Origin: Salinarchaeum sp. Harcht-Bsk1
GTDB lineage: Archaea; Halobacteriota; Halobacteria; Halobacteriales; Salinarchaeaceae
Assembly (NCBI RefSeq): GCF_000403645.1
Contig: NC_021313.1
Span: forward strand, 2,065,014 to 2,129,013
Reading direction: 5' to 3'
Length of the DNA: 64,000 bases
This document shows positions 40,873 to 46,378 of this stretch, piece after piece. The notes below the pieces were generated by a model. It saw nothing but the letters and a program-made list of their open reading frames with translations, was not told where the DNA came from and did not search any database. Within the stretch, counting starts at the first letter, position 1. Each line of letters starts with the position of its first letter. The translations under genes and the position numbers were made by a program.

Positions 40873-41796
40873 CTACTCCCAGGCTGCCGTCCGGATCTGC
40901 TCCTCCGCCTGCCGGAGGTGCTCCTGGGCGTCGAAGCGCTCGACGATCGCTTCCAGTTCCTCGCGCGTCGCGCCGTCGGCGCGTAGCGTCCGGGCGTGCT
41001 CGGTGATGGTCGGCACCGCCCGGACGACGTTGTCCACGATCGGGATCGTGGCGGTCTGGGGCGAGCGCGACAGCGGGTTGAGATCGATCACGATCTCGGT
41101 CTTGCCCATCTTCCCCAGCGCTTCTGCACGGTCGCCGTCCTCCAGCGGCACGAGCACGACGTCTGCGTCCTCGATGCCGTCGGCGTCGACGATCCCGCGG
41201 TAGTGCCCGACCTCGGGGACCTCGCCGTCCCCGGTCAGGCCCTTGACCTCCTCCGCGCCGTGCTCGCGGAGGTGTTCGGCGATGGCCGCCATCCGCTCCT
41301 CGGTGCGGTTGAAGAGGTTGACCTCGAGGTCGGCACCGACGACATCGGCGAGTTCGACGTACTCCTCGGGCACCAGCGCGGCGACGTTTCCGTTCACGGA
41401 GAGCACGGGGTGTTCCGCAAGGAGGAGCTGAGCGGCCGCCGCGCGGGCGGCGTCGTCGGCGCTCGGGATCGTCTCTTCGCCGAGCAGGTAGTCGAAGGCC
41501 GTGCCGCGGCCCTCCGCGTGCATCCCCTGGATGTGGGTGATCCCCTTCTCCACGCCGGCCTCGATCCGATGGCGCGTCTCGAGGTCCTCGGATCGCGGGT
41601 GGTCGTCGGGCGTGTGGTCGGGTTCGTCGCTGCCGTCGCCGCCGTCAGCGCCGTCGTCGGCGCTCGAAACGTCCGGAATCGCGTTCTCGACGGCGGATTG
41701 ACTCGCCGCCTCGGTCGCTGCGTCGCCGGCTCCGTCGGTGGCGGGGCCGTCCCCGTCGCCGCCGGGCTGTGCGGATCCGTGGTCCTCGTCGCTCAC
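40873..41796 (-). CDS. 4-phosphopantoate--beta-alanine ligase (archaeal CoA pathway)
   Basis: The 307-residue enzyme joins phosphopantoate and beta-alanine to give phosphopantothenate, the step after pantoate kinase. Highly conserved segments are RHRIEAGVEKGITHIQGMHA, LLLAEHPVLSVNGNVAAL, EVNLFNRTEERM and LVPLEDGDRAEALGKMGKTEI. An acidic, low-complexity N-terminal extension of about 70 residues is added. GTG 41796 is chosen because CCTTTTGC lies 24-31 nt upstream on this strand; an ATG at 41823 would sit within that box. Pantoate kinase lies 3.4 kb upstream on the same strand. Confidence 0.94.
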   Translation of the reverse strand: MSDEDHGSAQPGGDGDGPATDGAGDAATEAASQSAVENAIPDVSSADDGADGGDGSDEPDHTPDDHPRSEDLETRHRIEAGVEKGITHIQGMHAEGRGTAFDYLLGEETIPSADDAARAAAAQLLLAEHPVLSVNGNVAALVPEEYVELADVVGADLEVNLFNRTEERMAAIAEHLREHGAEEVKGLTGDGEVPEVGHYRGIVDADGIEDADVVLVPLEDGDRAEALGKMGKTEIVIDLNPLSRSPQTATIPIVDNVVRAVPTITEHARTLRADGATREELEAIVERFDAQEHLRQAEEQIRTAAWE

Positions 41797-41819
41797 GCTT
41801 GGTGGTGGGGAACCGATCT

Positions 41820-41827
41820 GCAAAAGG
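41820..41827 (-). promoter_or_regulatory. TATA-like box of the phosphopantoate ligase gene
   Basis: CCTTTTGC (minus strand) lies 24-31 nt before GTG 41796 and decides that start. Confidence 0.55.
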
Positions 41828-42092: not shown

Positions 42093-44954
42093 CTACCAGG
42101 TCACGACGGTTTCGCCCTCGGGGCCGTGCTCCTTGACGGAGAGCATCTCCTCGCGGGCCGCCTGCCTCGACGGGTGCGGCTCGACCGATTCCGCGAGCGA
42201 GCGGCCGTTCTCGTCGACGAGGCGCCAGATCCAGCCGCCGCCGCGCTCGTGGAACTCGAAGGCCGCTTCGTCGATCTCGAGGATGCTCGCCTGCCCGACG
42301 ACGTCCTTGGATTCGTCGATCGCCGTGGTCACGTCGTCCCGAACCTCGTAGTTCGCGGCGCTGACGGCGCGGACCCGCTCGCGCTCGTCGAGGAGGCGCC
42401 AGGCCCAGCCGTCGGTCTCGTCACGGTGGAGTTCGAAGGCGAGCGTATCGAACTCGAGCGTCCCGGCGTCGGGCGCGCGGGACTGGACGTCTTCGACCGC
42501 CTCGACGGCGGCGTGCTGGCTCTCGTAGCGCTCCGCGGAGACCGCCACTGGTTCGCGGTTCGCGTCGAGGAGCCGCCAACCCCACCCGTCGTCGGTCTCG
42601 TCGACCCAGATCACGCCGTCGCCGAGTTCGAACACCGGCGCGTCGGCGGCGCCGTCGATGACGGCGTGGGCGTCCGTGAGCGCCGAGCCGCGGTCCTCGT
42701 AGGTCCGGTCGCCCGTCGCGACGGCCTCGCGGTCGCGGTCGATGAGTCGCCAGTGCCAGCCGCCGCCGTTGCGGAGCTGGAGCGTGAGCGCGCCGATCTG
42801 GTCGACCTCCGCGCCGTCGCCGGCCTCCCTGACGTCAGCGATCGCCGCGACGGCGTCGTCGCGGGTCGGGTAGCGCTCGGTGCCCTCCGCGAGGATCGTG
42901 CCGTCGGTGTCGACGAGCCACCAGTCCCAGACGTCGGCCTCGACGTCGGTCGAGAGCTGGAAGATCGCGGTCTCCATCCCGCGGACCCTGGCGTCCTCGA
43001 GGTTCTCGGTGAGGAAGTCGACGGCGTCACGTGCGGATGCTCGCGAGGGATGGGTCTCCGCGCCCTCCGCGATCAGCTTCCCCGCCTCGTCGATGAGCCG
43101 CCAGGCGTACTCACCGGCGTCGGTCTTGTAGATCTCGAAGGCGGCGGTGTCGATCTCCAGCACCTCGGCGTCGGGTGCGTTCTCCTTCAGCGTCGTCATG
43201 CCGTCCATGACCTCCTCGCGGGAGCCGTACTCCTCGCCGGAGTCGGCCATCACCTGGCCGTCCTCGTCGATGAGCCGCCAGCGCCACTCGCCGCCGGACT
43301 CGTACTGCTGGAAGGCGGCCTGCTCGAACTCGATGAGGTCCGCCGCGAGGGCCTGCTCGCGAACGCGGCTCGCGGCCGACTCGGCGGCCTCGCTGTCCGC
43401 GAACGACTCCGTGCTGTCTGCGAGGAGCCGGCGATCCGCGGAGACGAGGCGCCAGTTCCAGGTTCGACCGCCGTCCCCGGCCGCTTCCGCGGCGTCGTCA
43501 CCGCCCGCCGCCACGCCGGGATTGGACTCGGGATAGACCTCGTAGTCCGCTCCCTCGACCTCGACGGTCTCGGCGTCGCCGACGACGGAGCGGGTTCGCT
43601 CGGCCCGCTGCTGGATGGTTCCGGCAGCGTCGACCGTCTCGTGACTCGTCGCGATCAGGTCGTCGGCGTCGTCGCGGAGCCGCCAGCGGTGGCCGTCGCC
43701 GACGGCGTACAGTTCGTACCCCGGCTGGCCACGCTGGATGATCGTCGCGTCGCCGACGCGCTCCGCGGCGTCGCTCGCGGCCTGTTCCGCGCTCCGGCGG
43801 GTCTCGTAGGCGGCCTCGCTGGTGACGAGCGCCCGGTCGTCGCGATCGACGATGCGCCAGTGCCAGCCGCCGTCGCCCGGCACCAGTTCGACGCCGACCT
43901 CGAACGCGAGGATGCGGCTGCCGTCGATGCCCTCGACGAACTGGTCGGTCGCGACCTCGGCGGCCGCCTCGTCGTCGTAGCCGCCCGGATCGGTCGCGAG
44001 GGGCTGCCGGCGGTCGTCGAGCAGCCGCCAGTGCCAGTCGCCGCGCTCGTCCTCGGAGACGTCGAACGCGGCCGAGCGAATCTCGATGACGTTCGCTCCC
44101 GGGATGGCCTCCTTGAGGAAGGTAACTGTGGATTCTGCCTCGTCCCGCGTCGCGGCGGGTTCGTCGCTGCGAGCGAGGACGCTGCCGTCGTCGCGCACGA
44201 GCGACCACCGCCAGCCACCCTCGTCGGTCTTGTAGAGCCGGAAGGCGGCGGTCGTGATCTCGAGCATCCCCGCGTCGCCGATCGTCTCCCGAACGTCGTC
44301 GATCGCCAGCCGTGCGTCGGTGTCCGACGGCGCGAGTTCCGCTGATTCACCGAGGGCGTCGCGTTGGATGATCCGCCAGGCCCAGTCGTTGCTGGGGTGT
44401 TCGAACACGGCGAAGAAGGCGTCCTCTTTCTCCTCGCCCAGCAGGACCGGCGAGGCGTCGGAGTCGATCCCGAGTTCGGGTTCGACGAGCAGTCCTTTCT
44501 CCCCGGTGATGACGGGGACGAGCACTGCGACGCCCGCGACGACGCCGACGCCGAGGCTGTAGACCGCGATGATGATCGGCGCGTAGTCCGTTCCCTGGTT
44601 GACGTTCCAGCTCCCGGGGTAGACGGTCCAGAACACCGGCATCGAGAGCAGCGCGACCGCCGCGCCGACCAGACTCGCCTGCATCGCGCGTCGCCTGACC
44701 GGGAGGAGTGTGACGATCCCGAGCAAGCCGAACACGCCGCCGGAGGCGGCGAGTACGATCGCGATTCGCCGGAGCGCCCAGTTCTGTCCCGACATGACGA
44801 CGCCGACCTCGTAGATGAGAAAGCCGAGGATCCCCGCGAGCGTGCCCATGAGGAACAGCCAGTAGCCGTACACGTCGCGTTTGGAGTCCGGTTCGCCGAC
44901 GTAGCGGTGATAGAGTTCGACGAGTTTCCCGTCCTGAATGTCAGATGCTGCCAT
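42093..44954 (-). CDS. Membrane protein with 13 tandem YegP/DUF1508-like repeats
   Basis: The 953-residue protein has four membrane helices in its first 150 residues (about 30-50, 62-82, 90-110, 125-150). The rest (about 175-953) is a run of about 13 units of 55-60 residues. Each has the YegP/DUF1508-like signature: a short strand ending A-F-x-hydrophobic, a W-x-W-R-L core (WRWSLV, WHWRLL, WNWRLV and so on), a D-x-G turn, S/T-x-E-x-Y and a helix. Single or double YegP domains are common small proteins; 13 in a row on a membrane anchor is striking. The array should be cytoplasmic if the N-terminus is inside. Function unknown. Confidence 0.88.
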   Translation of the reverse strand: MAASDIQDGKLVELYHRYVGEPDSKRDVYGYWLFLMGTLAGILGFLIYEVGVVMSGQNWALRRIAIVLAASGGVFGLLGIVTLLPVRRRAMQASLVGAAVALLSMPVFWTVYPGSWNVNQGTDYAPIIIAVYSLGVGVVAGVAVLVPVITGEKGLLVEPELGIDSDASPVLLGEEKEDAFFAVFEHPSNDWAWRIIQRDALGESAELAPSDTDARLAIDDVRETIGDAGMLEITTAAFRLYKTDEGGWRWSLVRDDGSVLARSDEPAATRDEAESTVTFLKEAIPGANVIEIRSAAFDVSEDERGDWHWRLLDDRRQPLATDPGGYDDEAAAEVATDQFVEGIDGSRILAFEVGVELVPGDGGWHWRIVDRDDRALVTSEAAYETRRSAEQAASDAAERVGDATIIQRGQPGYELYAVGDGHRWRLRDDADDLIATSHETVDAAGTIQQRAERTRSVVGDAETVEVEGADYEVYPESNPGVAAGGDDAAEAAGDGGRTWNWRLVSADRRLLADSTESFADSEAAESAASRVREQALAADLIEFEQAAFQQYESGGEWRWRLIDEDGQVMADSGEEYGSREEVMDGMTTLKENAPDAEVLEIDTAAFEIYKTDAGEYAWRLIDEAGKLIAEGAETHPSRASARDAVDFLTENLEDARVRGMETAIFQLSTDVEADVWDWWLVDTDGTILAEGTERYPTRDDAVAAIADVREAGDGAEVDQIGALTLQLRNGGGWHWRLIDRDREAVATGDRTYEDRGSALTDAHAVIDGAADAPVFELGDGVIWVDETDDGWGWRLLDANREPVAVSAERYESQHAAVEAVEDVQSRAPDAGTLEFDTLAFELHRDETDGWAWRLLDERERVRAVSAANYEVRDDVTTAIDESKDVVGQASILEIDEAAFEFHERGGGWIWRLVDENGRSLAESVEPHPSRQAAREEMLSVKEHGPEGETVVTW

Positions 44955-45174
44955 GGTGGGATGAAACGTGCTCCCACCGGGAGCATAAACCCCAGCACCT
45001 GTTTTCGTCCCGGCAATTCCACGAATACAACGCAGAAAACTACCCGAATGCTGTTGGAAGGAGTGGTCGTCGATATGGTGAACTGTTCGGGCAGCTTACG
45101 GAAAAACGGCCAGAAGCGTTATGAGATTCCGATCGATTTCGACCCGCGCTGACCCGTCGATTCAGCGAGTCGCG

Positions 45175-46005
45175 CTACCGTAACAGGCTCGCGCCAGCGG
45201 GATCGATCTCCGTCCGTTCCGCGTCGTAGCCCGCATCCGTGAGACCAGTTCCGAAGCAAAACACCGTCTCCCCCAGCATCGCCATCGACGCGTCCCCGCC
45301 GGCCTCGTTCGCGCCCTGGATCGCCTCCCCGACGTCGGGCGTCAGCAGCTCCGCCTCGCGGGCGAACCGGCGCGAAGCGAGCGCGAACGTCTCGACGGTC
45401 GGCTCGGAGCGCACGAGCTGGAGGCACTGTTCGCCGATTTCGCTGAGTTCCTCGGTGTCGCCATCGAGTACGTCAGCCGTCGAGAGTTCGTCCATTGCGA
45501 GGTACTCGACGGTCTCGCGGGCCGGAATGCGATCGAGGGATCCTTCGCCTGGTGCACCAGGCTCCGTTCGCAGGACGATGCCGCCCTTTGCCTGCGCGAC
45601 GACGTCGCCCAGCCCGGTGCCGGCCTTTACCTCCGCGCCGTGGGCCAGGGAGATCAGTTCGTTCTCCGAGTACTCGAGTTCGAAGGACTTCGCGGCGGCG
45701 AGCGCCGTCCCGAGCGCGGCCGCGCCCGAGACGCCGAAGCCACACCCCGGCGGGAGCGCGCTCTCGACGAGGACGGTCGCGTCGACGTCGAGGGCCTCCC
45801 GCACCCGCTCGACCGGCGCGATCGGTGCGCTCGTGTCGTCGAGGTAGGTCTCGCGGTCGCCGTACCGGACCGTCACCGTCACGCCGTCGGCGAGCGCGAT
45901 TCCGCCGCCCGTGGAGCCAGCCGCCATCGGGTCGTCGGCCTCGTGGACCGCGAAGAACCCGGTGACGTGGCCGGGGACGAACGCCGAGACCGCCTCGCCT
46001 GCCAT
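45175..46005 (-). CDS. Pantoate kinase (GHMP family, archaeal CoA pathway)
   Basis: The 276-residue GHMP kinase phosphorylates pantoate, the archaeal replacement for pantothenate kinase. It starts SAFVPGHVTGFFAVHEADDP, has a GSTGGGIAL turn, and the ATP-loop LPPGCGFGVSGAAALGTALA. The later GTGLGDVVAQAKGGIVLRT segment is also conserved. Its partner enzyme, 4-phosphopantoate--beta-alanine ligase, lies downstream beyond the YegP-repeat gene. ATG 46005 (MAGEAVSA) is the start that fits the family. The 220-bp gap downstream holds nothing recognisable. Confidence 0.94.
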   Translation of the reverse strand: MAGEAVSAFVPGHVTGFFAVHEADDPMAAGSTGGGIALADGVTVTVRYGDRETYLDDTSAPIAPVERVREALDVDATVLVESALPPGCGFGVSGAAALGTALAAAKSFELEYSENELISLAHGAEVKAGTGLGDVVAQAKGGIVLRTEPGAPGEGSLDRIPARETVEYLAMDELSTADVLDGDTEELSEIGEQCLQLVRSEPTVETFALASRRFAREAELLTPDVGEAIQGANEAGGDASMAMLGETVFCFGTGLTDAGYDAERTEIDPAGASLLR

Positions 46006-46095
46006 GCGGGTGCCTTGGAGTCCTCCCAAAAACCGGTTTCGGCCTATCATCGGGTGCTGTGACAACTGATGAACCAATTGAAACCGCGACCGCCT

Positions 46096-46378
46096 TCGGA
46101 AGCCCTCTCCCGCTCGCCGCACCTAACTCGCTGCGCGCTTCGCTCGGCCTTCGGCCTCGCTTCAGTGCTTACTTCGTTACGTGCGGCGAGCGGTCGGCCC
46201 CTTCCGGAGCCCCACCCGGAGACTTTGTTCAGTTGAGCGACGACGTGGGGATTCCGGCTGCGTTCCGCGTCGGGAATCCGGCCTGCTACAGCCCGTTCGA
46301 CGATCCACAGCACGTTGCGACCGATCCATACGCACCGGGTGGGACTGGAAAGGGCCGACGAGCGGGAGGGGCTTCCGA
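46096..46378. repeat. Interspersed hairpin repeat pair, copy D
   Basis: The left hairpin (46096-46217) has GGAAGCCC...CCCTTCC ends and a perfect 13-bp inner stem, CCGCTCGCCGCAC with GTGCGGCGAGCGG, unlike copies A-C in sequence. The right element (46334-46378) is a minimal 45-bp version: CGGGTGGGACTGGAAAGGGCC joined almost directly to GCGGGAGGGGCTTCC. The spacer between them (46218-46333) is not like that in copies A and B. This occupies most of the 420-bp gap between pantoate kinase and dUTPase; no gene is seen in it. Confidence 0.85.

Follow-up and report, generated by a model that had tools for sequence, protein, structure and literature searches.

Domains of the DUF1508/YegP type (PF07411, also UPF0339) are widespread in bacteria and archaea, and to our knowledge no function is known for them. 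In the SCOP description of YegP the units are paired, with swapped C-terminal strands and one common sheet, and the solved members of the family, such as HVO_2922 (6q2z), NMB1088 (3bid) and YegP (2k8e), are soluble proteins made of single units or pairs. The haloarchaeal protein described here shares with these members the profile, the beta3-alpha-beta order and the fold, but it carries 13 such units in one membrane-anchored chain. Its anchor belongs to DUF7139 (PF23600), a domain that is near-universal in the class Halobacteria (379 of 394 genomes), and whose other members have the same N-terminal four-helix anchor but end in tails that are acidic, that carry a DUF7140 motif, or that consist of five DUF1508 units behind a linker. 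The parts, DUF7139 and DUF1508, had thus been named already and what is new is the invariance of the unit count; no publication on the 13-unit architecture was found in the open-access literature searched. A structural precedent may exist in the thylakoid-anchored contractile injection system of Anabaena, where an extension of Cis12/All3315 (aa 610-1100; 7b5h chain AD) that is absent from AFP forms the ‘wide connector’ between the baseplate and the thylakoid membrane (PMC8894136).

Within the window, that is the whole 64,000-nucleotide stretch of Salinarchaeum sp. Harcht-Bsk1 DNA that was analysed, the array gene occupies 42093..44954 on the minus strand and encodes 953 aa from an ATG start. 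The DUF7139 anchor (aa 10-152; 44499..44927, minus strand; Pfam, E 7.5e-38) scores above the profile cut-off and includes four TM helices, which were located by hydropathy and are helical in the AlphaFold2 model, namely helix 1 (aa 35-53; 44796..44852), helix 2 (aa 66-84; 44703..44759), helix 3 (aa 93-111; 44622..44678) and helix 4 (aa 127-145; 44520..44576), all on the minus strand. The remainder of the protein matches DUF1508 in 10 stretches (E 1.3e-77; 255.9 bits against a Pfam cut-off of 22) and the NCBIfam HVO_2922 model in 11. The best single unit reaches only 58 bits against the 90-bit cut-off of this equivalog (NF041908), and the whole protein passes it only through the summing of the 11 stretches; ‘HVO_2922 family protein’, which is probably the public annotation, therefore fits the array poorly. 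The tail is predicted to face the cytoplasm, as suggested by the four TM helices, the lack of a visible signal peptide, and the presence of three arginines in loop 2 (TM2-TM3) and none in loop 3, which suits both termini being inside. The tail contains no cysteine, 23% D+E, and has a pI of about 4.2, a composition that would be expected of a haloarchaeal cytoplasmic domain. A 739-aa antisense ORF lies over the array (42126-44345, plus strand), but it was read as a shadow of high GC3 (here 0.91), and the mirrored frame tends to be open in the orthologs too without any other sign of coding.

The sequence-only reading had proposed thirteen tandem YegP-like domains on a four-helix anchor, and this count is exact: an iterated unit HMM and a WxWRL-like regular expression each returned 13, a repeat far beyond chance. 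All units lie on the minus strand and are delimited by the unit HMM, with the AlphaFold2 model and dN/dS as further evidence. Proceeding from the membrane they are unit 1 (aa 178-232; 44259..44423), unit 2 (aa 235-291; 44082..44252), unit 3 (aa 295-349; 43908..44072), unit 4 (aa 353-406; 43737..43898), unit 5 (aa 411-465; 43560..43724), unit 6 (aa 467-542; 43329..43556), unit 7 (aa 546-600; 43155..43319), unit 8 (aa 603-657; 42984..43148), unit 9 (aa 662-717; 42804..42971), unit 10 (aa 722-776; 42627..42791), unit 11 (aa 780-834; 42453..42617), unit 12 (aa 838-893; 42276..42443) and unit 13 (aa 896-949; 42108..42269). Unit 6 is longer than the others due to an acidic, low-confidence insert in its first hairpin, which grows to about 50 aa in the Natrialbaceae. 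The central unit 7, for which Pfam, positional comparison and the ortholog profile add evidence, is the most conserved and is closest both to the DUF1508 consensus and to the free HVO_2922. The strong divergence noted earlier between the units is borne out by pairwise identities of 14-45% (mean 28%); the W-x-W-R-L core that had been ascribed to every unit is present in its strict form in most, while others deviate, with versions such as WRWSL, HRWRL and WDWWL. No odd/even two-unit periodicity was seen in the between-unit score matrix.

Structure prediction agrees with the assignment to the YegP fold. An AlphaFold2 model based on 71 orthologs (mean pLDDT 88.1, pTM 0.62) shows 13 repeats of the order beta-beta-beta-alpha-beta, with linkers of only 3-6 residues between neighbouring modules. 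A model of units 7 and 8 matched 3bid with TM 0.77-0.80 and rmsd 2.1-2.6, and 6q2z with TM 0.75, both at probability 1.00, and the predicted array units thus have the unit fold of the solved DUF1508/YegP members (3bid TM 0.80, rmsd 2.2). The arrangement of the two units relative to each other differs from that in the YegP pairs 2k49/2k8e (TM about 0.38), in a fragment model with a pLDDT of only 74. Since the same two units reach about 83-93 within the array, there is a faint hint that the units may lean on their neighbours. The fragment model also resembled kinases of the actin fold, type III pantothenate kinase among them, but so weakly (probability <=0.6) that these matches were discarded. 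A search of viral structures returned nothing past phage DUF1508 proteins, PHROGs yielded unknown families only, and no defence-system model matched the array.

A search of 394 genomes of the class Halobacteria with the N-terminal 201 residues as the query was followed by retrieval of essentially all long orthologs in its ranked result. This gave 100 intact genes when that of the window is included, and exactly 13 units were counted in all 100. These orthologs span five GTDB family codes (f1, f3, f4, f5 and f8), are 35-86% identical to the window protein, and measure 926-999 aa in the 86 cases where length was determined. Only a frameshifted copy and a decayed stub depart from 13, and neither of them is intact. 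The former, in Natrinema thermotolerans (G025, L261/L270), is interrupted inside unit 5 and could be either a pseudogene or an old assembly error; the latter (G132; L181:4420-5066, also L199), located between the gene for pantoate kinase (PoK) and that for phosphopantothenate synthetase (PPS), retains TM1-2 joined to units 12-13 and contains an in-frame stop. Among 58 named loci, a set that overlaps with the first, 53 have 13 units; the other five comprise one at the end of a contig (L214), three with broken frames (L259, L261, L264) and a distant paralog (L268) in which 12 were detected. The random variation in array length among relatives that might have spoken against a maintained array was therefore not encountered, and because no intact relative examined departs from 13, the length of the array itself seems to matter.

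The order of the units is conserved along with their number. When each unit was compared with those of other genomes, its best match was the unit at the same position in 99.9% of cases across all genomes, in 91% when only genomes below 50% identity were used, and in 85% when only those below 45% were used. The two Salinarchaeum copies differ by a dN of 0.082 and a dS of 0.506 overall (dN/dS about 0.16), with per-unit ratios of 0.03 to 0.57 and a unit 7 that is 100% identical. This same-position orthology, combined with the low dN/dS, argues that the array is old, ordered and under purifying selection, in agreement with the earlier view of an array that is maintained and has not recently expanded. 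The tree of the arrays fits the family codes with no more changes than the minimum, the exceptions (genus g30 of f3 and one Haloferax) being likely transfers or misplacements. The array thus appears to offer a natural setting in which the number and order of YegP units are under strict long-term selection.

The best match of the whole model among solved structures is 7b5h chain AD, the Cis12 protein mentioned above (Foldseek E 2.5e-7, probability 1.00, 415 columns), and this chain is also recovered at the sequence level with the ortholog profile (E 4e-5), although the match is local only, with a global TM of 0.04-0.05. It suggests that the ‘extra domain’ of Cis12 likely has the same fold as the array units; Cis12 contains tandem YegP-like repeats that are not named as such in its source paper, where neither the YegP fold nor this link is mentioned (PMC8894136). 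In both proteins a tandem YegP-like stretch is joined to a membrane, in Cis12 as a bridge to a large body, but Cis12 has a baseplate domain and no predicted TM helices, whereas the array lacks a baseplate domain and has four. No injection-system genes were present among the neighbours examined, which are CoA genes instead, and the array is accordingly not counted among the Cis12 baseplate proteins.

With these observations in mind, we give an even chance to the proposal that the array protein forms an arm that is tethered to the membrane, has a fixed length and bears binding surfaces specific to each position. The four DUF7139 helices would hold the protein in the cytoplasmic membrane, and the acidic tail of 13 modules would project into the cytoplasm as a single, structured chain, as the linkers of only 3-6 residues suggest. 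The sequence of a module is specific to its position, and the chain would therefore most likely present a series of distinct binding surfaces, each at a set place and a set distance from the membrane, where the arm might hold one or more partners; PoK and PPS are, as a guess, the first candidates. The scaffold or multivalent binder that the sequence-only reading had suggested is in this light plausible. Its cytoplasmic facing, its rigidity and its binding of partners are features that we infer, and its nearest structural precedent is the Cis12 extension. Counting against a fixed-length arm are the dispensability of the gene, which has been lost repeatedly and is decaying in one genome, the pTM of the model (0.62), and the TM scores for the unit pair (about 0.38) and for Cis12 as a whole (0.04-0.05). 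An unlikely elaboration is that of a molecular strut, in which selection would have fixed the number at 13 units so that the arm bridges a given distance from the membrane and docks a large cytosolic assembly with the YegP-like module seen in Cis12, the paralogous five-unit class being a shorter strut.

The genomic setting invites a more specific explanation. In the window the array gene is preceded by PoK (45175..46122, minus strand, its start possibly inside the ORF) and followed by PPS (40873..41823, minus strand; Pfam, NCBIfam), so that it lies between two CoA-pathway genes of one strand as the sequence-only reading had observed, and the proximity is a deep one: in the 12 kb retrieved per locus, PoK is encoded on the strand of the array in 84 of 100 loci and PPS likewise in 84, a count that omits the window, which has both, and includes the frameshifted copy L270. 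The order PoK-array-PPS spans f1, f3, f4 and f8, and judged by distance both genes directly flank the array in 39 of the 65 loci that have both. One could therefore envisage a dedicated scaffold or regulator of CoA synthesis that gathers PoK and PPS at the membrane, where it would channel 4-phosphopantoate or control flux; the correlation of array and PPS sequence distances (r 0.86) would be in line with this, although shared descent alone could yield it. Yet many genomes have PoK and PPS, mostly side by side, without an array, and gene-order inertia after a single insertion explains the synteny equally well. Ten arrays have relocated in about three events without losing any of their 13 units, and at the four of these loci that were inspected the array had no evident CoA-synthesis genes beside it and no common partner. 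A tree of PoK+PPS calls for five or more changes between having and lacking the array, at least some of which are losses, as the decayed stub between PoK and PPS demonstrates. The array also has a TATA-like box of its own (TTTATG, 44984..44989, minus strand, at -35..-30 of the ATG); in the orthologs such a box, often TTTATTAT, is located at about -40..-35, and it occurs within -40..-25 in 73 of 86 orthologs, whereas a control stretch gives 14 of 86; an independent promoter is therefore very likely. The link with the CoA genes is thus real as gene order but is not obligatory, and a scaffold dedicated to CoA synthesis, though plausible, is rather unlikely. In the window a perfect inverted repeat (GCTCCC-GGT-GGGAGC, 44970-44984), imperfect in the genus mate, directly follows the TATA-like box and is a possible operator.

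A stress-response or buffering protein, in which the many copies would do no more than increase avidity or binding capacity at the membrane, is quite unlikely, even though such a role has been proposed for YegP-type proteins: in response to perchlorate the one-unit relative HVO_2922 is induced (PMC12175516), yegP counts among the multi-stress hub genes of E. coli (PMC9501238), and yegP adjoins capK/capS in 57 cases (PMC13373217). If capacity were all that counted, copy number should be free to change and units to be exchanged, and neither is seen; it is this invariant number and non-interchangeable order that leads us to prefer a spacer or ordered scaffold. Tandem repeats are also prone to recent, unstable expansion and to assembly artefacts, but here both are refuted, to the point of a negligible probability, by units that are only 14-45% identical to one another and by the same 13 positions being kept in 100 genomes. 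Whatever its partners, the fixed-length arm that we favour links the YegP fold with a membrane and, in most loci, with two CoA-pathway genes, and so may provide a handle on the role of the fold.

The array is not the only protein in which the two domains are combined. A paralogous membrane-anchored class has five DUF1508 units in all 12 proteins examined (L163, L164, L166-L169, L175, L180, L285, L286, L288 and L289), a count that is constant across families, and in the proteins inspected a helical linker is often present. The Salinarchaeum genome itself carries one of these five-unit arrays (L163:6331-7983; G000:C1:1527.3-1529.0 kb). Another DUF7139 protein (L287) has three DUF1508 units, and free one- and two-unit DUF1508 proteins were also found. 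All anchored classes have an odd number of units (13, 5 and 3), and free HVO_2922 has one; if units pair, odd counts would always leave one for dimerisation, which is speculation. Halopiger goleimassiliensis, besides a 13-unit ortholog, has a second, distant long array (L268:7001-9742; 33% identity) in which 12 units were detected. Finally, two DUF7139 anchors (L177 and L165) end in a cysteine motif, CGNC...C...C, which in L177 is assigned to DUF7140.
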